Part shown: positions 38,475 through 55,944 of the stretch, piece by piece
Layout: each line of letters starts with the position of its first letter
Numbering within the stretch: position 1 is the stretch's first letter
NCBI RefSeq assembly: GCF_008629685.1
Contig: NZ_VWSF01000011.1
Span: 1-64,000, forward strand
Direction of reading: 5' to 3'
Source: Adhaeribacter rhizoryzae
Lineage (GTDB): Bacteria > Bacteroidota > Bacteroidia > Cytophagales > Hymenobacteraceae
DNA length: 64,000 nt
The notes under the pieces: model-generated
Databases searched by the model: none
What the model was told of the DNA's origin: nothing
Seen by the model: only the letters and a program-made list of their open reading frames with translations
Made by a program: the position numbers and the translations under genes

Positions 38475-38760
38475 TTTTTATCTTTATCAAGGTGTTTAAC
38501 TGTTCCGGAAATATTTAAAGCAGGCGTTTAGGCCTGTTGTAAGAACTCAATTGCCAAACTTAGCTTATAGCTAGCGGCTAAATATTTAATAATTTAAGTA
38601 CAACAGGTATTATACGTTGCGGGGTAGTTAAGTAGTTTAACTGCGGCATTTAAAAAACGGCTAATTAAAAAACGGTAGTAAACAGAAAAGCCTGGTTAGT
38701 ACCAGGCTATAGGCAAATTAATACTTAAAAGTTAGTTTAACAGGTGGTGTTGGGTACTAA

Positions 38761-38931
38761 TTAATTTTCAGAAAAAGCATAAAGGCCAAAATCCGGAATA
38801 ATAATATAAGCATAAAACCGATTGGTATCGTTAGCTTTCACTTCTTTGTTATATAAAATGCGCGCTGTTAAATCATTTTTGAGCCGGTTGCTGTAACTTA
38901 ATTCTGAGGGTAATCTTATTCCTTTTTTCAT
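38761..38931 (-). CDS. Possible small protein, 56 aa
   Basis: An ATG-started reading frame of 56 codons (MKKGIRLPSELSYSNRLKND...) ending with an IIIPDFGLYAFSEN tail. Amino-acid composition looks protein-like (charged first half, a hydrophobic strand near residues 40-48). It lies in the accessory stretch and no relative is recognised. Confidence 0.35.
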   Translation of the reverse strand: MKKGIRLPSELSYSNRLKNDLTARILYNKEVKANDTNRFYAYIIIPDFGLYAFSEN

Positions 38932-39122
38932 GATGCTATACGGTTAAGGTAAAAGAATAGCCAAACCTGTTTGTTTATGAGCCTGACAATTATGGTAGAT
39001 TACCCACGCCTAATTAAGGGTTGCAGGTTTCTGACCCGAAAACATATACGACTGCTTTAATTTTTTAAACGGTACTTTTTTAAGAAAAGCATTGCACTCT
39101 TAAAACTTTTCTATACAACAAT

Positions 39123-39272
39123 GTGGCAGTAATTCAGATAGTTGACAATGAAGCGCGTAAAAGCTGGCTGGTTTTTCAGTTCCAATTCGAGCCTTATTCA
39201 GCCGCCCGCGCTTATTTATTATACCTTCACTATCTCCCGTTGCTGTTAGGTTTGTTGGCCGCCATAGCCTAG
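39123..39272 (+). CDS. Possible small membrane protein, 49 aa
   Basis: A GTG-started frame of 49 codons that opens MAVIQIVDNEARKSWLVFQF and ends in a hydrophobic stretch of about 18 residues (YLHYLPLLLGLLAAIA). Codon composition is protein-like, but there is no ATG and no Shine-Dalgarno. It could be a fragment of a decayed gene. Confidence 0.25.
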   Translation: MAVIQIVDNEARKSWLVFQFQFEPYSAARAYLLYLHYLPLLLGLLAAIA

Positions 39273-39791
39273 CAAGTCAAATAAATTTATTTACCCATTA
39301 TAAAACCTGAACAGGCCTATGCTCATTATGTTCATGCTGTCAGCAATTTTCCTGTAGCTACCGGCTGTTTTATTCAGAGCGTTTTAGTAGACTGCCTAAA
39401 AGCTGCCAGGGAACGCGCCCTGTAAAATTCAGGCACCAGAACTTGCAACAACATTATCCGGTAAGTTTTTCCGGCAACAACGTTCCTCTAAATACTTAAT
39501 GGGTATCTTAAGCATAGGAAGTATGTATTAAGCCATCATAAAACCATAATTATTATAACTTAAGCAGCTACTTAATACACCAATAGTACTTGTGCGCTCA
39601 ATCGAAGCATCGTCTTTTATAATGGAATGGCCCATTCTCTTCCCTGGAAGGGCCAGGGGTAACTTTAGAAATTATTTAACTTTAGCTATTCCCGTTCTTA
39701 AATGCGCATAATAATTCAATATTGGTGTAAAGATATAAATACACTTAGGCTTGTTGCTTTTACAAAGGTCGTAATGCTTTGGTGCAGCTCT

Positions 39792-39980
39792 TTATATGCC
39801 AGTATGGCTACTGCCTTTTTTATTTTCTTTTTTTATTCGTTTCTGCTCGTAGGCAATTATAGAGTATATATGTTCTTTTAATTCTAAAGCTCCGGGTGTG
39901 CGGGGTTCAGCATCTACCAGTTCTTCTATGCGCTTGGCAATAGCATCGTAGTCGCGGTTGTTTTTAATGGTGTGTTTCAT
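39792..39980 (-). CDS. HigA-like antitoxin fragment lacking the HTH (62 aa)
   Basis: The first ~45 residues, MKHTIKNNRDYDAIAKRIEE followed by LVDAEPRTPGALELK and an IAYEQKR segment, match the N-terminal helix region of HigA/COG5499 antitoxins (usual pattern: DY..AL.RIEEL.DAEPGTPEGDELE.L). Full antitoxins are about 110-130 aa and continue into an HTH; this one stops after a short lysine-rich tail. No HTH-coding continuation was found on the minus strand below 39792, and no toxin ORF lies beside it. It may be a degraded remnant or a stand-alone short form. Confidence 0.55.
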   Translation of the reverse strand: MKHTIKNNRDYDAIAKRIEELVDAEPRTPGALELKEHIYSIIAYEQKRIKKENKKGSSHTGI

Positions 39981-40036
39981 TCGTGTGTAGTATTAAGGGC
40001 TTAGAAAAAGTAATTAATGGTTGTGTTGGTAGTGGT

Positions 40037-40219
40037 TCAGGAGTTGTTGGTAAAATTGCCGCTGGTTATATTTAGGCCAGGAGTATCTTCTTTTTCGTGG
40101 GTTTTACGCTGTTTAAGGCTCTTATTTTTAATCCATGCCTCGTGTAATTCCCATAAGCTTATGGTAATTAATAACATAACAAATACAACGTAATACCCCA
40201 AAGCTGTTACCATTTTCAT
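40037..40219 (-). CDS. Small single-pass membrane protein (60 aa), start uncertain
   Basis: A frame with one hydrophobic helix (VTALGYYVVFVMLLITISLW) followed by a basic, then polar C-terminal tail. The frame stays open up to 40345, but the extra 42 codons lie in extremely AT-rich DNA and are unlike coding sequence, so the Met at 40219 (or 40213) is preferred. Topology and small size are all that can be said; it sits in the small-gene accessory stretch. Confidence 0.4.
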   Translation of the reverse strand: MKMVTALGYYVVFVMLLITISLWELHEAWIKNKSLKQRKTHEKEDTPGLNITSGNFTNNS

Positions 40220-40345
40220 AACCAATGCATTTGCCGAAAGGATTACAACATATATACCAAAATACTTATATATTATAAGTTTATATAAAAATGATAATAG
40301 TGAGCACTTTATATATAAAAAATTATATATAAAATTTTGCTGCAT

Positions 40346-40862
40346 TCTTCAGCTTTCCAGATAATGGAAAAGCTGTGCTAAATTTTGGAAATATTTGAAA
40401 TAAAGCGTTTTAAACTACATTAAGAGGAGTATATTGCTTGTAAAATCAGGTGTGCATACCAGGGAAAGTAAAACTGATTGGGCTAAGAATTTGCCCTGAA
40501 AAGTTAAATACGGGAAGATAATTCTGGTAAAAAGTTTGTGCAGGAAGCTTAAGCCGGAAACTTACTAATATTTAAAAGCTGCGGTATTAGCTAATAAGCG
40601 TTTCCAAAATTTGTAAAATAGTTATTAGGTGTTTTGGCTTACAGCCGGGTACTAATATTGCAAGAGGCAGGATGCAATTTATTGGGTAGGGTTAAATAAT
40701 ATAAGCCCAGATAGGAATTAAATTTATTTCGACTTTATGCCTAAAGGTTAAGCAAAAGTTAATCTAAAGCGTAATAAATTTTTTATTGCCACTATTAAAA
40801 TAATATTCACCAGAATGCCGGCTTTACTTTCGCCATCTAATAAACAGAAACCTTGAGAAAAC
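40346..40862. other. Gene-free AT-rich stretch
   Basis: About 500 bp without an ORF of note or clear repeat; nothing further seen. Confidence 0.45.
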
Positions 40863-41120
40863 TTATTCTTTGCTGGTAAATGCCCGGATGCCTGCTACTT
40901 CGTTCGATTTATTATCATACCAAACTTCGGCAAAAAAGGTGCTCAGGTAGTACGTGTTTATGCGGTATAACTCACAATAACGAGTAGCTAGGTAAGTACC
41001 ATCGGTTATTAAATAATCTAATTGTTCGTAATAGGGCAGCAATTTAAAATCATGAAGACCCAAGGTGGCCTCTTTGGGTTTTTCGGTAATTGCTGCTGAA
41101 TACTCTTTATCGTTAATCAT
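40863..41120 (-). CDS. Hypothetical protein, 85 aa
   Basis: A soluble 85-aa protein, not recognised. It has a Tyr-rich central part (LLPYYEQLDYLITDGTYLATRYCELYRINTYYLSTFF) followed by AEVWYDNKSNEVAGIRAFTS, which looks like a small alpha/beta fold with a beta-hairpin at the end. Composition is protein-like and the ATG is clear. It is one of several isolated minus-strand small genes in the accessory stretch. Confidence 0.5.
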   Translation of the reverse strand: MINDKEYSAAITEKPKEATLGLHDFKLLPYYEQLDYLITDGTYLATRYCELYRINTYYLSTFFAEVWYDNKSNEVAGIRAFTSKE

Positions 41121-41581
41121 TGGGTTACTTACGTATTGTAGAAGTTAATATATTAACTGCTTTTCAGAAGTAGGCTTAATAAAACAGTTTCTGTTAGTAC
41201 CTGGGTTAAACCCGTGCCTATTGCCGCCTATATTTAATATTATTACTGTTTAATTAAAACAAAGCGCTTTCTTTCTCTCCATTAGCTCTGCCATAAATTT
41301 AAAAATTTGCCAAAAACCCAGAATAAATTTAGTACTAGGTAAGCCACTAAGCTTGTTTAGACTACTGCTTTACAAGCCTTTGTTAATGCAAATTTTTATA
41401 AGTAAAGTAAAGTTGCCAAATAATCCTAATAAAGCCCTAAAATATTACGCTAGACATATGATGATATTAATAGCCGCTAAATTAAAGTTATTCTAAATCA
41501 AGTATTTCTGCTTAAAGTTGCTTTTCGGAAGCCCGTACGAACTGCGGCGGCAGTTAAGTAAAAATATTGAAGCGGCTAAAG
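41121..41581. other. Gene-free AT-rich stretch
   Basis: About 460 bp with no ORF, hairpin or repeat that stands out. Confidence 0.45.
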
Positions 41582-41821
41582 TTAAACTGGCTCGTTCAGG
41601 CGCAACTGCCCACCTTCCAGGCGCAGGCCGCCCCAGAAAAATGCCTCCGGTATATTCAGAGCATGGGCAAGTTGTTTAATAAAGCATATATTCCCTTGTT
41701 CCAGGTTTTCGTGAATTTCTGTAAGGGGCATATCAAACTGCTCGCAAAGTAAAGCGGGTGTTTTGTGGCGAAATTCTAGTGCTTGGTAAAGCAATTCGTA
41801 ACGGCTGTAGATGATTCCCAT
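41582..41821 (-). CDS. Small XRE-like protein, 79 aa
   Basis: A 79-aa protein whose middle (TPALLCEQFDMPLTEIHENLEQG, then FIKQLAHALNIPEAFFWGG) has the helical rhythm and the closing 'ALNIP...FF' of XRE-type HTH domains (normal ending: LA.aL.vp...lf). The DNA-recognition helix would be MPLTEIHENLEQ. The N-terminal helix before it is RYELLYQALEFRH. It resembles the HTH of the regulator at 38073-38474 only weakly. A REP-like hairpin lies 95 bp upstream. Confidence 0.5.
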   Translation of the reverse strand: MGIIYSRYELLYQALEFRHKTPALLCEQFDMPLTEIHENLEQGNICFIKQLAHALNIPEAFFWGGLRLEGGQLRLNEPV

Positions 41822-41916
41822 GTTAAGGAGATGCTAAAAAGAATAATTACTAATAAATAACTGCTATTAAGCAAAATTAAATGGTATACTTTCCATTTGT
41901 CTTTGAAGCCCATCTC

Positions 41917-41973
41917 TGTCATTCAGGAGGAAACTATTTGGCTGCCTGCTACATAGTTTCCTCCTGAATGACA
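41917..41973. repeat. REP/MITE-like perfect 21-bp inverted repeat
   Basis: Arms 41917-41937 and 41953-41973 are perfectly complementary with a 15-nt loop; the core word is GTCATTCAGGAGGAAACTA. Outside the arms CCCA and TGGG extend the symmetry. It carries no T-run, so it is not a terminator. Palindromes beginning TGTCAT are a common dispersed repeat type in Bacteroidota. Confidence 0.75.
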
Positions 41974-42229
41974 AATGTGGGTTACTTAAAGTTTCACTGC
42001 TTTGGCTTTTGCGTAACATCAGTAAATAACTATTTGCGAAATAGTATTAATGGATAATTTATAAAGTAGAATAACTGAGCTGTAATAAGTTACCGGAAAA
42101 TTTCGGTAAAGGAAAGAAGTACGTTTTTAAAATTGGCGTACATTAAAAATTATGGTGCCAATCTAAATTCAAGATAAAATTTACACTAAATATTTTGAAA
42201 AGGCGATTAATTATTTATAGCAGAAAAAC

Positions 42230-42260
42230 AAAAAAACCTCCTAAACTTACGTCTAGAAGG
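42230..42260 (-). terminator. Terminator of tRNA-Pro
   Basis: Minus-strand stem CCTTCTA (42260-42254) / TAGGAGG (42243-42237), one mismatch, followed by seven T residues. Confidence 0.65.
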
Positions 42261-42269
42261 CTTTATTAG

Positions 42270-42343
42270 TCGGGATGGCCGGATTTGAACCGACGACCTC
42301 CAGCACCCCATGCTGGCGCGATACCGGGCTACGCTACATCCCG
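42270..42343 (-). tRNA. tRNA-Pro (GGG)
   Basis: Read on the minus strand: acceptor CGGGATG / CATCCCG, D-arm TAGCGTAGCCCGGTATCGC, anticodon stem CCAGC/GCTGG around loop ATGGGGT (anticodon GGG), T-arm GTCGGTTCAAATCCGGC, discriminator A. 74 nt; no CCA is encoded. Confidence 0.96.
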
Positions 42344-49904: not shown

Positions 49905-51491
49905 TTATCTTAGTTTAAAAATTGATAATATTTTAAAATCGTTTACTTGAATCGTATAAATTTCGTTGGGGTAAGGATAGGTGCCGGGGTGCCACCGATA
50001 TTCTGTTAAAAAATAAGTAGCTTCTGATAGCGGTACAAGTTTAAATCGCTGCCGGTGCCGCTCCGGGAGTATAAAGGTATTTAACAATCCTGGTGGGTTA
50101 GCACAATTATATTTAATAACGGCGCTGCTGTCTTGTTGCAAAATAAATTCCAACCCCTGCCGATAAGATAAGCCCCAGTAATCTCTTTCAAAATTCTGTT
50201 CAACGGCTTTGCCCTTTAAAAAACTAAAGTATACGTTTTGGTGCGGATGATTCCGGACCATAAACCAAAGCGAATGGATCAAGCTAATGCCCACTAACGT
50301 TACCAAGAATATTCGTCCGTACTGCTGGTACAAGGTAAGTTTAGTTGTTAATTGCCACAGGTTTTCCAGTCCTACTAAGCTTATCAGCAAAAAAGCGAAG
50401 TAGATAAAGTATAAGTGCCGCCAGCCATCGTAAACGACCGAGTTTAGAAGTATTACTGCTGCAATAGGTATAAATAAAAACAGGATACAGGCTAGATCGA
50501 ACTGAAAGATATTTTGGGTAATAGCCCCATCAGAACTAAAAACACGATTAAGGATAAAACCCAGACCTATAAAGAAAAGAATTGAATATACTAAAGGCGT
50601 AGTAATTATCAGCCACACCGGAATATAATGCCATGGCAAATTTGTGGCCAGCACAGCATGGCCCATGTAAAAAACGGTTTCATACCACCGAAATCGTTGC
50701 ATGTTCCGGAACACTAAAATAAACCGATCTATTGGGTCTTCCCATAGGTAAGGCCAAAGCGCCACCATAATAGGTGCCAATAAGAGAAGGTAAACCCCAA
50801 AGTAAAGTACATAGGTCCGAAGGCTACTTTTAGAGCGGAATATTGCTATTAATACCAGTACTGCTGTAATAAAAGGCAAAATAACGCCCATAATGCGGGT
50901 GTCTATTGCCAACGCACAGGTAATGGCATGAAAAAAAGCTGTTTTAAAAGAAGGCGCTTTCATAAACCGGATTAAGGTGTAAGCACCCATAATCATAAAG
51001 CTTAGAAAGGGAATATCTTTGGAGTTATAGAAGGCTTCGGCAAATATCCGAGGGCTTAATACCAGTATGAGGCACCCCAATAATGCTACTTTTGGGTCCC
51101 GGAATCTTTCCCGGGCAAGCAAATAGAAAAAGAAGACCCCCACGTAAAATATTAGAAAAGTTAAAAGGTGCCGCAGTAAAAAGGTTTCTTGCCAGGTATG
51201 AATACCCAAAACAGCTTTCAGGATGGCAAAAGGCAGCAATACCGTTACACCATGATCCGCATCCACATAGGTTTCCAGTGGGGGTACATTTTTCAGCCAT
51301 TCGTGTTGGGTAAGCAATTGGGGCGCAAATAATTCAACGAGGTATTTTAAGGAAACGAGCCCGGTTTGTAATTCAAAAAATTCATCGAAAGAAATGCCAT
51401 AATCCGGATAAAGCTCTAAGCCGGCTACTAACAGCAAGCTAAAAAAGAGGAACAGTACCAGTTTATTAGTTAAGGACCGGAAAGAAAACAT
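49905..51491 (-). CDS. Polytopic GT39/PMT-like glycosyltransferase
   Basis: A 528-aa integral membrane protein with about ten to twelve hydrophobic segments. The first large loop contains DYGISFDEFFELQTG (near residues 28-42), equivalent to the acidic DE catalytic motif of GT-C glycosyltransferases of family 39/ArnT, and a downstream loop has SPRIFAEAFYNSKDIPF, a pattern seen in this family. The C-terminal ~100 residues are a soluble domain (WGLSYRQGLEFILQQ). It probably transfers a lipid-linked sugar to an envelope acceptor. Convergent with coaE; acceptor and sugar are unknown. Confidence 0.7.
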   Translation of the reverse strand: MFSFRSLTNKLVLFLFFSLLLVAGLELYPDYGISFDEFFELQTGLVSLKYLVELFAPQLLTQHEWLKNVPPLETYVDADHGVTVLLPFAILKAVLGIHTWQETFLLRHLLTFLIFYVGVFFFYLLARERFRDPKVALLGCLILVLSPRIFAEAFYNSKDIPFLSFMIMGAYTLIRFMKAPSFKTAFFHAITCALAIDTRIMGVILPFITAVLVLIAIFRSKSSLRTYVLYFGVYLLLLAPIMVALWPYLWEDPIDRFILVFRNMQRFRWYETVFYMGHAVLATNLPWHYIPVWLIITTPLVYSILFFIGLGFILNRVFSSDGAITQNIFQFDLACILFLFIPIAAVILLNSVVYDGWRHLYFIYFAFLLISLVGLENLWQLTTKLTLYQQYGRIFLVTLVGISLIHSLWFMVRNHPHQNVYFSFLKGKAVEQNFERDYWGLSYRQGLEFILQQDSSAVIKYNCANPPGLLNTFILPERHRQRFKLVPLSEATYFLTEYRWHPGTYPYPNEIYTIQVNDFKILSIFKLR

Positions 51492-52120
51492 AAATTAGGT
51501 AATGTATTTAAAACAGATAATAACTCCAGTATCCTGAAGGAATCGGAATATCTGAATTATTTATGAATAGCAGCTTAAAAATTAAATTGGGGCAACTGGC
51601 CTGCTTTAAACTTCTTCCGATTTGGTCTTATTCTTGTCAACACTCTCCCAGAATAGCTAAAGAATTTACATTCATCAGAAATGATTAATGTGCTTTTATA
51701 TAAAACCAAAACCGTACTGCACCATGTCAATTGTTCGGGAGGGTAATATTGAGCGCTTGCTAAGTAAGTTCTTCTGGAATAATTAAACTTATTAAATAAG
51801 AAAAGAATGGTCTTTTAGCTTAATTAAACCAGTTGCTTAAAATGGCTGGGTAGTCTTTCAATTAAATGGCGACTTGTTTTGGCAGTTCCCCTACCCAGGA
51901 AGCGTTTAAGCATATAACTTTATATATTTCTATTGTTTTTTAGAATATTAATAACTATTTTAAGTAGGATATATAGAAATTCAATCTGACAAAACCACAA
52001 GCTGATATTAATTTCGGTTTTAAACTCCTGAGAAACACTTGCTTTTTTAATAAGGAGATAAAATTGTAAAAACGAAGCAAGCATTCTTTACTTGACTTTA
52101 ACCTTATAAATTTAAAACTA
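51492..52120. other. AT-rich intergenic region before the two-gene membrane cassette
   Basis: About 630 bp with no convincing ORF. A CTTGCTT / AAGCAAG inverted pair lies near 52039 and 52076, flanking an AAGGAG sequence. No promoter match was good enough to call. Confidence 0.45.
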
Positions 52121-52405
52121 ATGGCAACTAAGTTAGACAATACAGTTAAGGCTATTAAAGAGTTAGTTGCTTTATTTAAAATTGAAAGAACAGTTTATTT
52201 AACTATTACTTTAGTATCGGTTCTGGTGCTTATTGTAACCGCTATTTCTTTAATTCTAAGAAGTGATAGCCAGGAGAATACAATAGCTATTATGGGGCTT
52301 TTTGGATCTACAGGCGGTATTGTATATTCAACCGGAAGGCTTTTAAAAATGTGGTCTGAGGCAATGCAGCTTATCCAAAAAGTCTTAGAGCAAAATGATA
52401 GATAA
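52121..52405 (+). CDS. Small two-helix membrane protein of the pYEATS cassette (YLATT-like candidate)
   Basis: A 94-aa membrane protein. It has an amphipathic N-terminal helix (residues ~1-22), a transmembrane helix near 24-46 (YLTITLVSVLVLIVTAISLIL), a second near 53-74 (NTIAIMGLFGSTGGIVYSTG), and a C-terminal charged helix (EAMQLIQKVLEQNDR). Its gene overlaps the next one by 11 bp, so the two are translationally coupled. I recall a family of small multi-TM proteins that associate with pYEATS proteins (YLATT); whether this protein belongs to it cannot be verified here. It could be the effector or anchor of a membrane module. Confidence 0.6.
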   Translation: MATKLDNTVKAIKELVALFKIERTVYLTITLVSVLVLIVTAISLILRSDSQENTIAIMGLFGSTGGIVYSTGRLLKMWSEAMQLIQKVLEQNDR

Positions 52406-52955
52406 AAATATAATCAAGAAAAGGTCGCGGCAGGCTGCAATTATTTCTGCTATTGGGTTTTTAATAATCATTTTGGCTTTTGGTTTTGCCTCCTGGCAAT
52501 TAAAAAGATTAAATTCAGCAGTAGCAGCCAAAAACAAGGAAATTAATGCCCTCGACGCGCTTATTAAGAACCGGAATAAAGATATAAAAGCTAAGAAAGT
52601 TTTAATAGATACTTTAATCAGCGAAATTAATAAACTTAAAGACCCCAGAATTCAGCCAAAAGTGCGGGCTGTTGCAATACCAGGAGTTTTCGATTCACAA
52701 AAAAGGCAAGTTTATGATTTTACGGTCTGGGTTACTTCCAGTCAGCATACCCTAAATAAGATTTCCAAAGTTAGTTATCAGTTTGGGCATGATACCTTTA
52801 TCCTGCGAAATAGAGAATCCAATGATAACTCAAATGGTTTTTTAGTCAGCTATAGGGGATGGGGATGCCTATCGATAGTAAAAATTATAGTAGCATATAG
52901 AGAAGGAAATAATGAAGTGCTGTACTTCGATATGTGCAATGCTTTAAACTGGTGA
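52395..52955 (+). CDS. Membrane-anchored coiled-coil protein with C-terminal prokaryotic YEATS-like (pYEATS) domain
   Basis: A 186-aa protein with one transmembrane helix (about residues 14-34), a coiled coil (about 35-78, KRLNSAVAAKNKEINALDAL), and a C-terminal beta-sandwich-like domain (about 85-186). The latter follows the pYEATS rhythm: YDFTVWV (first strand), LNKISKVSYQFG (the loop where others have V.Y.LHptF), RNRESNDNSNGF, SYRGWGCLSIVKIIVAY (GWG-containing strand pair) and REGN. The start ATG overlaps the upstream gene by 11 bp. Such domains are thought to sense or bind small ligands or modified lysines in conflict and signalling systems; function here is unknown. Confidence 0.6.
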   Translation: MIDKNIIKKRSRQAAIISAIGFLIIILAFGFASWQLKRLNSAVAAKNKEINALDALIKNRNKDIKAKKVLIDTLISEINKLKDPRIQPKVRAVAIPGVFDSQKRQVYDFTVWVTSSQHTLNKISKVSYQFGHDTFILRNRESNDNSNGFLVSYRGWGCLSIVKIIVAYREGNNEVLYFDMCNALNW

Positions 52956-53078
52956 AACCGAGCCGTATCATATTGTTGCTTGTTTGGTTAAGCTGCTGCA
53001 TCAGGTAATATTTATCCTGTTGTGCGATTGCTTACAGAACCATTAATTTAATATTGAATTGAGTTGCACCAAAACAAA

Positions 53079-53108
53079 AAAGCCTCACGATTTATATCGT
53101 AAGGCTTT
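53079..53108 (-). terminator. Terminator of tRNA-Val
   Basis: Minus-strand stem AAAGCCTTACGAT / ATCGTGAGGCTTT, 13 bp with one mismatch and a 4-nt loop, followed by TTTGTTTT. Confidence 0.8.
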
Positions 53109-53116
53109 AATTATTG

Positions 53117-53191
53117 TGGGGCGTACTGGATTCGAACCAGTGACCCCCTGCTTGTAAGGCAGGTGCTCTGAACCAGCTGAGCTAACACCCC
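53117..53191 (-). tRNA. tRNA-Val (TAC)
   Basis: Read on the minus strand: acceptor GGGGTGT / ACGCCCC (one G-T pair), D-arm TAGCTCAGCTGGTTCAGAGC, anticodon stem CCTGC/GCAGG around CTTACAA (anticodon TAC), T-arm with GGTTCGAATCC, discriminator A. 75 nt, no encoded CCA. Confidence 0.97.
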
Positions 53192-53317
53192 TTTTTGTAC
53201 CGTTAACAACCTGCTGTTGTTGTTTGGTGATGCAAATGTCGTGGTTTTTTTTGAATCTGCAAGTACTTGTTCAAAAAAAATAAAAAAAATATTTAAGCCC
53301 CGTTGCCGTTCAAAAGC

Positions 53318-53348
53318 TTGGGTAGTTTAACAGACTACTGTATCTTTA
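53318..53348 (+). promoter_or_regulatory. Bacteroidota-type promoter for the AsmA-like gene
   Basis: TTG at 53318-53320, 20-nt spacer, TATCTTTA at 53341-53348: close to TTTG-N19/20-TAnnTTTG. The start codon lies 22 bp downstream, giving a very short leader. Confidence 0.6.
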
Positions 53349-53370
53349 ACTCTGGACAAAAGTAAATTGC

Positions 53371-55944
53371 TTGAAGGCTAAACAAATAGGTAAGCTCTTG
53401 GGGTGGACGGTAGGTGGCTTGGTTTTGCTTATCTGCCTGGCGGCCAGCTTGGTTTATTTTTACCAGGACAAAGTAATTGCGCTATTTGTAGCAGAAGCCA
53501 ACAAGCACATTAAAACCAAGGTGCAGGTAAGGCAAATAGCGCTTTCGTTGTTCGATAAATTTCCGCAGGTATCGGTTACGCTCGACGGGGTACAGGTAAT
53601 GGAATCGGTAGCGGGCAGCCAGATGCCCTTAGCCAGCGCCGATAAAATATTCTGCACGTTTAGTATGCTGGATATTCTGCTGAAAAAGTACCAGGTGCGC
53701 GAATTGTTTATGGAAAACGGCGAAGTGCACGTAAAGGTGTTGCCTTCCGGCGAAATAAATTACCGCATCTTCGGGAAAGATACCACCGCCGCACCTAATG
53801 AGAAATTTGCCTTTAACCTGCAAAAAATCTCGCTCCGGAATGTGCTGGTAACCTACAACGACCAACCCCTGCAACAGTACGACAAAATAATGGCCCACCA
53901 GGTACAGGCCGCCCTGACGGTTAACGGACCCGAAATAACTATTCAGGGCGAAGGCCAGGCTTATGTACACACAGTACGGCTGCGCGAAAACGAATATTTC
54001 AAAAATAAAGAGGCTTATATTAAATCGTCGTTGCGCCTGAACCTGGATACGAAAAGTATTTGGTTAGCGCCTTCGCTGGTGCAGGTAAACAAAGCCAGTT
54101 ATGAGGTGGCCGGGCAAATTAATTACGCCCGCAATATTTATTACGATTTAATATTTAAAGGCCGCAATACCAGTGTGCAGTCGGTGGTGGCTTTGTTGCC
54201 CGAAAAATATTACCGCCAATACGGCCAGTATGAAAGCAGCGGGGCGGTTTATTTTAATGGTTTGGTAAAAGGGCATTTATCGCCTACCGAATCGCCGTTG
54301 GTAAATATTAGTTTTGGTTGCCGCAATGCTGCTTTTTACCAACCCGATTATAAACAAAAAATAACGCACTTAAGCCTGAATGGGAGCTTTACCAACGGAG
54401 CTCGCCACAAAAGCGCTACCTCGGTGCTGGCGCTGAAAAACTTTAAAGCACGTTTGGCCGGCGAGCCAATAGTCGGCAACCTGGTATACCGGAACTTCGA
54501 TAATCCTTACCTGGAACTGGACCTGAAAGGGAAATTAGCCATTGCGGATGTGCTGGGAATATTTCCGGTTGCCGAAATAAAAAGCGGCAGTGGTCAGGCC
54601 CAGGTGGCGGTGGCATTTGCGGGACCCCTTAAATTGTTCCGGACGGGCGGTGGCGAGGCGGCTGTAAAGGCTAACGGCGATATAACGTTGCATAATGCCA
54701 TGCTGCAACTAAGTGGTTACCAACTCCCATTTCGGGGGCTATATGGTAATTTCTTAATTCGCAAAAACGATGTAGCCGTAACCAATTTTAGGGGTTGGCT
54801 GGGAAATTCTGATTTTAAATTAAACGGCTTTTTTAAAAATGCGCTGAGCTGGCTTTTTCTCAAAAATCAGGGCTTACGCATCGAAGCAGATCTGGAATCT
54901 AAATTTATAAACGGCGACCAGCTACTAAGGGGTGGGGTGGCTCAAACGGCAAATAAGCGCCAGCATAATTCGGCTAAAGGCATAAATAATTACCGGTTGC
55001 GGGTTTCGCCCCGTTTTTCTTTCGATATTAATGCCTCGGTGCGCCATCTGCAATTCCGACGGTTTCGGGCTAAAAATATTAAAGGCAACGTGCAATTACA
55101 ACGCCAGGTAGTTTCTTCGCCGCAAATTTCGATGAACGTGGCCGGCGGGAAATTTACGTTGCATGGCCGCATGGATGCCCACGTGCCCGATAATATTAAA
55201 ATTACAACTACGGCTAACCTGGCCAATATGCAGGTAGATAGTTTATTTTATGAATTCGAAAATTTTGGGCAGCAATTTATTCTGCAACAGCATCTCAGAG
55301 GCGTCTTAACCGCCAATATTAATTCTGATTTATATTTTAACAGCCGCCTGCAGGCTAAAACCGATTTAATGGAAGCGGAAATCAAGGCCATGGTCCGGAA
55401 CGGGCAGCTTCTTAATTTTGAACCGTTGCAAAAGCTATCGCGATTTTTAAAACGCAAGGAACTGGAAAATATCCGGTTTGCCGAATTAAGCAATAATTTC
55501 TGGATTCAGAAACGTACTGTTTTTATTCCCGAAATGGAAATCCGGACCGATGTTACACGGGCTTCGGTTATTGGTGTGCAGGGCACGCATACCTTCGACC
55601 AGGAAATGGATTATAAATTCCGGATACCTTTAATTTTGCGGAAGGTGCGTTTGCCGGAAGAATCGGGTACGCCGGTTGCGGTTACGGCTGGTACGCCTAA
55701 TCTTTTCCTGACGTTGAAAGGCAACGAGCAAGATTATAAAGTAGCGATGGATAAATCGCGCGTAAAAAATAAAATTACCTTGAATCTACGGCGCGCACCC
55801 ACACCTGAATCGGGCAACGCGGAAGAACGTAAAACGCCCGCCCCAAAAGAGAAAGTAGGTTTAAAAGAAGTTCTAAAAAATAAAAGGCCCGAAAAGAGAA
55901 AAGAAGAAGTAAAGCCCGAAGAAGGTGAATATTTTGATTTCTAA
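53371..55944 (+). CDS. AsmA family protein
   Basis: An 857-aa protein started by TTG, which immediately precedes the signal-anchor helix (about residues 10-31). Behind it is the AsmA N-terminal pattern (KTKVQVRQIALSLFDKFPQVSVTLDGVQV, near 46-75), a long periplasmic beta-rich region and the AsmA C-terminal region (about 640-790, LLNFEPLQKLSRFLKRKELENIRFAEL and FRIPLILRKVRL). The last ~70 residues are basic and low-complexity (KRPEKRKEEVKPEEGEYF). AsmA-like proteins are inner-membrane lipid-transport bridges; this one resembles the family in order and size. Alternative ATG starts are inside the helix, so TTG is preferred. Confidence 0.85.
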   Translation: MKAKQIGKLLGWTVGGLVLLICLAASLVYFYQDKVIALFVAEANKHIKTKVQVRQIALSLFDKFPQVSVTLDGVQVMESVAGSQMPLASADKIFCTFSMLDILLKKYQVRELFMENGEVHVKVLPSGEINYRIFGKDTTAAPNEKFAFNLQKISLRNVLVTYNDQPLQQYDKIMAHQVQAALTVNGPEITIQGEGQAYVHTVRLRENEYFKNKEAYIKSSLRLNLDTKSIWLAPSLVQVNKASYEVAGQINYARNIYYDLIFKGRNTSVQSVVALLPEKYYRQYGQYESSGAVYFNGLVKGHLSPTESPLVNISFGCRNAAFYQPDYKQKITHLSLNGSFTNGARHKSATSVLALKNFKARLAGEPIVGNLVYRNFDNPYLELDLKGKLAIADVLGIFPVAEIKSGSGQAQVAVAFAGPLKLFRTGGGEAAVKANGDITLHNAMLQLSGYQLPFRGLYGNFLIRKNDVAVTNFRGWLGNSDFKLNGFFKNALSWLFLKNQGLRIEADLESKFINGDQLLRGGVAQTANKRQHNSAKGINNYRLRVSPRFSFDINASVRHLQFRRFRAKNIKGNVQLQRQVVSSPQISMNVAGGKFTLHGRMDAHVPDNIKITTTANLANMQVDSLFYEFENFGQQFILQQHLRGVLTANINSDLYFNSRLQAKTDLMEAEIKAMVRNGQLLNFEPLQKLSRFLKRKELENIRFAELSNNFWIQKRTVFIPEMEIRTDVTRASVIGVQGTHTFDQEMDYKFRIPLILRKVRLPEESGTPVAVTAGTPNLFLTLKGNEQDYKVAMDKSRVKNKITLNLRRAPTPESGNAEERKTPAPKEKVGLKEVLKNKRPEKRKEEVKPEEGEYFDF

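Follow-up and report, generated by a model that had tools for sequence, protein, structure and literature searches.

A two-gene membrane unit in Adhaeribacter rhizoryzae pairs a constant two-helix protein with a bacterial YEATS-type domain: a possible sensor-effector module

Do two small overlapping genes beside a tRNA in Adhaeribacter rhizoryzae form a unit, and what might such a unit sense and do? The genes lie in a window of 64,000 nucleotides (positions 1 to 64,000 of contig NZ_VWSF01000011.1, assembly GCF_008629685.1), the whole stretch of DNA analysed here. Gene A (52121-52405, plus strand) begins with ATG and encodes 94 residues with two hydrophobic segments; gene B (52395-52955, plus strand), which also begins with ATG, encodes 186 residues arranged as a transmembrane (TM) segment, a coiled coil, and a pYEATS domain. 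The two ORFs have 11 bp in common (52395-52405, plus strand). Upstream lies an AT-rich intergenic stretch of 629 bp (51492-52120, GC 0.31) whose ORFs are all short (at most 61 aa), flanked by a divergent gene (49905-51491, minus strand) for a 528-aa membrane protein that is glycosyltransferase-like by eye. A promoter is presumably situated within 51492-52120; sigma-70-like sites showed no excess over shuffled sequence in 51480-53380 (8 against 7.1, sd 3.2). On the other side, tRNA-Val (tac) (53116-53191, minus strand) has B on its 3' side, with its 3' end 160 bp downstream of B, and a terminator-like hairpin (53079-53108, minus strand) sits between B and the tRNA, on the tRNA 3' side. An 857-aa gene (53371-55944), which we take to be AsmA-like, adjoins tRNA-Val (tac) in all seven congeners. 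Between 51400 and 53400, neither tandem repeats nor RNA families other than tRNA-Val were found. A first-pass annotation of this DNA had described two ORFs overlapping by 11 bp between gene-free DNA and tRNA-Val, the first encoding a two-helix membrane protein of 94 residues and the second running from a TM helix through a coiled coil to a pYEATS-like end with YDFTVWV and SYRGWG; all of these points were borne out, and an HDTF motif is seen in B as well.

Protein A has two TM helices at approximately residues 27-45 and 54-72, and its structural model likewise consists of two helices (residues 2-47 and 51-93; pLDDT 79), for which a fold search against the PDB gave no match (best E 4.2). Searches of Pfam and NCBIfam with 11 A proteins yielded no convincing model, the best Pfam score of window A being 14.9 bits where the cut-off is 27, and no SLATT model appeared among the matches of the 11 proteins at E up to 1. 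A YukC match in three of the 11 (best E 0.0087) was weak and scattered and was taken as chance. The A proteins nevertheless form a coherent family: when each of the 11 members was held out, it scored 76-113 bits with the profile of the other ten, against 14.5 bits for the best shuffle, and conservation is centred around the motifs FKxERxVYL and GRxLKMW. The closest homologue of window A, from a Flavobacteriales metagenome-assembled genome (L034), is identical at 68 of 93 aligned residues (73%). For this pair pN is 0.18 and pS 0.82 (saturated), and the low pN relative to pS indicates purifying selection on A. A defines a rare family that is new here and lies outside Pfam and NCBIfam (11 A proteins) and PADLOC (window A).

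The rarity of A is seen across several searches. A pattern scan of one genome per species, covering 84,980 species, gave five loci. In overlapping family, phylum, and class samples, A turned up in 2 of the 204 genomes sampled from the family and in 5 of the 395 from the phylum (window genome included in both), with matches in 3 of 345 sampled genomes (window genome included) and 4 of 197 sampled genomes, one match being dropped from each of the latter two sets. By eye, the dropped matches were a short cytochrome-biogenesis-like ORF (G903) and a sugar-transferase-like ORF of 470 aa (G245). In all, 11 distinct A loci were kept: the window, G200, G464, L034, L036, L037, L038, G378, G448, G453, and G900 (G464, L033, and L035 are one locus, counted once). 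The hosts belong to Bacteroidota, including G464, which its record L035 places in Ignavibacteria, and to Luteimonas, with Luteimonas saliphila as the host of L036. No A homologue was found in plasmid records, in phage records, or, with the A alignment as query, in viral contigs. At one locus (L045:4360-4638), a TAG interrupts the A homologue before its last helix while the frame of the TPR partner is open; only the part before the TAG was used.

At all 11 kept loci, A is followed by a gene encoding a TM-coiled-coil protein, at a spacing of -17 to +41 nt (the 17-nt overlaps of L034 and L036 assume the first possible B start codon). The first-pass annotation had staked its case on co-occurrence of the two genes in related genomes, and the neighbourhood survey agrees with it, the two-gene unit recurring at 11 of 11 A loci in distant genomes. 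The C-terminal part of B, readable at 10 of these loci (the contig of L037 ends inside the partner gene), varies between them. A pYEATS end is found in the window and in G464. The L034 partner ends in a PG_binding_1 domain (45.4 bits against a cut-off of 23), with TPR below the cut-off; TPR exceeds the cut-off in the partners of L036 and L045; and the L043 partner has an NlpC/P60-like end at 22.6 bits, just under the cut-off of 23. For the C-terminal parts of the L038, L044, L009, and L049 partners, Pfam gave no match at E of 0.01 or below. The C-terminal part of the L049 partner (L049:4002-4685) carries the segments RYYPK ... IWFGPKV ... ALFLLRAGI, and a gene that looks by eye like an IS110-like transposase adjoins it.

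The N-terminal parts of these partners are related. A profile built from the first 100 residues of the nine partners lacking pYEATS recovers the two partners that do have it (47.6 and 30.0 bits), against 10.0 bits for the best of 1000 shuffles, and window B matches the N-terminal profile trained without pYEATS members at E 8e-8. When N-terminal parts were held out in turn, seven of 11 were recovered at E<0.001 (window, L034, L033, L049, L038, L043, and L045), L036 was borderline (E 0.0043), and L009, L037, and L044 were not significant (E 0.14, 0.11, and 0.68); all 11 scored above their own best of 200 shuffles. For L009, L037, and L044, B is counted as a partner by position and layout. Taken together, the held-out and profile results indicate that in much of the partner series a shared N-terminal module is joined to differing sensor ends. 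Searched with a profile of this module, seven genomes, all of them in its seed, each contain a single copy, located beside A. When the window is compared with L034, A shows 73% identity, whereas in B only 27 of 79 aligned positions agree over the first 100 residues and the C-terminal domains come from different families; the sensor side thus evolves faster. A is therefore the constant part and the C-terminal domain of B the part that differs, a pattern suggestive of sensors that plug into a common system, possibly one used in defence.

How did the pair reach this site? Within the genus, both pYEATS and A were detected in the window genome only, with none in seven congeners (one of them 78% complete). 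Of the 44 non-overlapping ORFs of at least 90 aa in the window, A has the lowest GC3 (0.26) and B the third lowest (0.33). The flank of tRNA-Val (tac) opposite the 857-aa gene differs between congeners, and only two of the seven carry a match to the divergent gene (49905-51491), in neither case beside this tRNA-Val. Within the window, no exact direct repeat of the tRNA 3' end that could mark an attachment site was seen; the longest exact repeat of 53091-53200 is inverted, 12 bases long, and shares four bases with the tRNA 3' end. In G001, the congener whose 857-aa protein is most similar (81%), the tRNA-Val 3' flank holds an island (L082:4438-11421) with matches to WYL, a RecD-like protein, a defence-type reverse transcriptase, and BrxL (E 1e-237), together with two further genes without a PADLOC match. 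The corresponding flank of G006 (L088:3561-8547) holds type I-B CRISPR-Cas genes, for Cas6, Cas8b, Cas7b, and Cas5b; two small genes (89 and 113 aa) are seen there between cas6 and cas8b. G002, G003, G004, and G005 had one flank gene scanned each, without a PADLOC match (four of the six congeners with a readable flank), and the contig of G007 stops 84 bases beyond tRNA-Val. The earlier suggestion of an acquired element at the tRNA is in keeping with three of these signs, namely the lack of A and pYEATS in the seven congeners, the low GC3, and the defence genes on the tRNA flank in G001 and G006. A literature search for a tRNA-Val integration hotspot in Bacteroidetes found none. Elsewhere in the window, a second ORF-poor stretch (38475-42268), which contains a low-GC3 ORF (40037-40345), adjoins tRNA-Pro (42269-42343).

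Known defence genes are sparse around A itself. PADLOC returned no family for A or B of the window at E up to 10, and of the 27 neighbour proteins scanned across the 11 loci, four matched, all at two loci: L038, where bSEFIR follows the pair, and L044, where the pair is followed by two methyltransferases and a type II restriction enzyme. The scanned neighbours at the other nine loci, including the two in the window, had no PADLOC match. Matches at only two of 11 loci make a direct link between A and defence suggestive but not strong. The L033 pair is preceded by a patatin-like gene that ends 56 nt upstream of A and has no PADLOC match. At L044:165-9988 (G448), the pair has the type II restriction-modification genes on one side and, on the other, a second pYEATS protein, this one multi-TM; a papain-like gene and a gene that is phosphodiesterase-like by eye are also present.

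Our preferred reading is that A and B are an inner-membrane sensor-effector module, horizontally acquired and most likely serving in conflict (phage or envelope attack); we hold this reading tentatively, at somewhat less than an even chance. That the A/B pair is a module at all we rate more highly than the whole sensor-effector conflict reading, and a role in conflict is plausible from context. Among the points against a conflict module, the TPR, NlpC/P60, and peptidoglycan-binding partners would fit envelope maintenance too. In the foremost rival explanation, A would anchor B, and the periplasmic ends of the B proteins would act on peptidoglycan, by binding or cutting it, or attach to envelope proteins; conflict would play no part. 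This explanation draws support from the PG_binding_1 end of L034, the NlpC/P60-like end of L043, and the TPR ends of L036 and L045 (below the cut-off in L034), and from the nine of 11 A loci at which PADLOC recognises none of the scanned neighbours. Envelope genes with a house-keeping role tend to belong to the core genome, however, and A is patchy even within the family and phylum samples (2 of 204 and 5 of 395 genomes, window genome counted in both). The absence from the seven congeners examined, the low GC3, and the variable tRNA flank also weigh against a maintenance function, and we regard it as an unlikely explanation that still deserves attention.

The sensor-effector reading depends on what the C-terminal end of B is. 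In Pfam, B matches pYEATS (PF20305) at 50.7 bits against a cut-off of 26.9, over residues 107-181 (52713-52937, plus strand); the eukaryotic YEATS model reaches 15.4 bits, under its cut-off of 22. An AlphaFold2 model from 12 aligned sequences (mean pLDDT 92.2) shows a helix spanning residues 4-81 followed by seven strands within residues 87-178, which in the pYEATS domain form a YEATS-type, immunoglobulin-like beta sandwich. The helix (52404-52637, plus strand) is predicted as a single one comprising the TM segment (approximately residues 14-32) and then the coiled coil, and it constitutes the N-terminal module common to A partners with other C-terminal domains. A Foldseek search of the model against the PDB gave 1131 matches at E up to 10, of which the best 50, those at E of 0.001 or below, are all eukaryotic YEATS proteins (best E 4e-5; top match 5sva_n, Taf14). 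The pYEATS-like identity proposed for B from its motifs thus holds both in the HMM search and in the predicted structure. Near full-length matches to B were limited to the window genome and G464 in a search that matched 20 genomes; the other 18, which were set aside, matched through the coiled-coil stretch only (within residues 29-104, E 1e-4 to 7e-4). No B homologue was found in plasmid records or viral contigs, and a fold search of BFVD with B returned nothing at E of 0.001 or below.

In eukaryotic cells, the YEATS domain reads acylated lysines. When the profile of the B alignment was compared with solved chains, YEATS2 was found at E 3.4e-8, and the HPSY and GWG of YEATS2 share alignment columns with the HDTF and GWG of B. 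In YEATS2, acetyl-lysine is described as clamped by Y262 and W282, with H259, S261, and G283 among the contacts (PMC5651844, from which the residue numbering is taken). H132-D133-T134-F135 of B (52788-52799, plus strand) aligns with H259-x-S261-Y262 of this cage, and W156-G157 (52860-52865, plus strand) with W282-G283. Over 12 aligned pYEATS sequences, position 132 is H in 10, position 134 is S or T in nine, position 135 is F or Y in 10, position 156 is aromatic in 10, and position 157 is G in nine. By alignment, the acyl-lysine cage positions are therefore retained in B (H132, T134, F135, W156, and G157), and B may bind acyl-lysine. B and the eukaryotic readers YEATS2, AF9, and Taf14 have the same fold and the same kept positions (H, S/T, F/Y, W/Y, and G); unlike these readers, B is a membrane-anchored bacterial protein whose YEATS domain is probably periplasmic.

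The side of the membrane on which this domain lies separates two readings. Within 15 residues on each side of the TM segment, the 11 B proteins carry 43 K/R before and 25 after it, with 20 and 24 D/E, respectively; in window B, five K/R precede the segment and three follow. Summed over the 11 A proteins, each end has a net charge of +11 and the loop -2. The charge bias of B is modest; together, the counts favour an arrangement in which B exposes its C-terminal domain beyond the inner membrane and A keeps both ends inside, so that the short ends of A are probably cytoplasmic. The PG_binding_1 and NlpC/P60-like ends of L034 and L043 agree with this orientation of B, N-in and C-out, which would leave the YEATS domain facing the periplasm. 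Other proteins join pYEATS and a peptidase on one chain: L012:5467-6624 and L060:676-2118 with a metzincin-like peptidase (near the Pfam cut-offs), and L013:3713-5437 with a papain-like domain. By eye, the N-termini of these three look secreted, and YEATS domains may thus work outside the cytoplasm. The rival to a periplasmic sensor is a cytoplasmic acyl-lysine reader, in which the end of B would lie inside the cell and, as a means of regulation, draw acylated proteins from the cytosol to the membrane. In its favour are the conserved cage positions and the abundance of acylated proteins in the cytoplasm of bacteria. Since the positive-inside count favours C-out, related partners bear peptidoglycan-facing domains, and the three pYEATS-peptidase proteins look secreted, we consider a cytoplasmic reader quite unlikely.

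If A and B do act as sensor and effector, B would sit N-in/C-out with its YEATS domain in the periplasm, and the coiled coil would multimerise B and couple it to A. The ligand bound by B could then be an acylated lysine, a different planar acyl group, or some component of an invader that resembles one; the ligand-bound B would change, and A would change in turn. Finally, A might open or perturb the inner membrane and thereby stop growth or phage entry. With no PDB match for the model of A, it is the two TM helices that suggest pore formation. The small two-TM protein, the overlapping genes, the patchy distribution, and the tRNA neighbour could also describe a toxin-antitoxin unit, with A as a small membrane toxin and B as its membrane-bound neutraliser. 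A neutraliser would not be expected to differ as widely in its C-terminal domain as B does, unless neutralisation is the task of its N-terminal part, and we judge a toxin-antitoxin unit very unlikely. That A and B are two unrelated small overlapping genes, neighbours by chance, is scarcely credible given their pairing at 11 of 11 kept loci in distant genomes. Beyond the sensor-effector reading lies a bolder one, namely an undescribed class of two-gene membrane immune module with a constant two-TM effector and interchangeable periplasmic sensors, one of them a working YEATS acyl-lysine reader; we think it quite unlikely that all of this will prove correct.

Several known systems resemble the pair in part. 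SLATT proteins are predicted pore-forming effectors with two TM helices (PMC7159879). They share with A the two-TM form and a possible conflict setting; however, none of the 11 A proteins matched a SLATT model, and the A/B pair comes without a nucleotide-signal enzyme. The S-2TM-beta effectors include Cap15 of CBASS, which disrupts the inner membrane, and OptE of Panoptes, for which the same is proposed (PMC12657218). Panoptes and A/B are alike in having two genes, one of them encoding a two-TM membrane protein. Cap15 and OptE carry a ligand-binding beta barrel on the two-TM chain itself (PMC12657218), whereas A lacks a soluble domain and the sensor of A/B belongs to a second chain, the TM-coiled-coil protein B.

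The first-pass annotation had instead likened A to YLATT, a name for three-TM proteins said to accompany pYEATS. Both are small membrane proteins adjoining a pYEATS domain, but A has two TM helices, no convincing Pfam match (none to YLATT, the presence of a YLATT model in the Pfam copy being unconfirmed), and partners without pYEATS as well, so the assignment is not supported. In the literature searched, there was no relevant paper on YLATT and none on pYEATS. The pYEATS sensor domain was already known (Pfam); what is new in this predicted membrane conflict module is the constant partner A, the partner series, and the layout. The A partner series was found neither in Pfam and NCBIfam (11 A proteins) nor in PADLOC (window A and B).

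B offers a compact bacterial YEATS protein with its cage positions kept, in a clonable two-gene unit. If B works as proposed, it would be, to our knowledge, the first bacterial protein shown to read acyl-lysine, and its YEATS domain the first to work outside the cytoplasm. A 2021 review posed as an open question whether bacteria possess acetyl-lysine reader domains such as YEATS (PMC8556138). The combination of the same A with different sensor ends amounts to a natural experiment on whether the triggers differ, and the A family provides a handle for related modules absent from PADLOC.

Beyond the A loci, pYEATS occurs in other membrane settings. In L002:442-1749, L057:1462-2652, L059:1462-2583, and L061:1462-2643, a multi-TM segment with an ISDWLTKII-like motif (by eye) and pYEATS are on one chain. 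The pYEATS of L061 is below the Pfam cut-off, and the membrane parts of all four reach no Pfam cut-off; their multi-TM segment differs in sequence from A. In G512 (L062:2171-4619), a short TM-pYEATS gene directly follows a gene whose end appears, by eye, to be phage-tail-collar-like.
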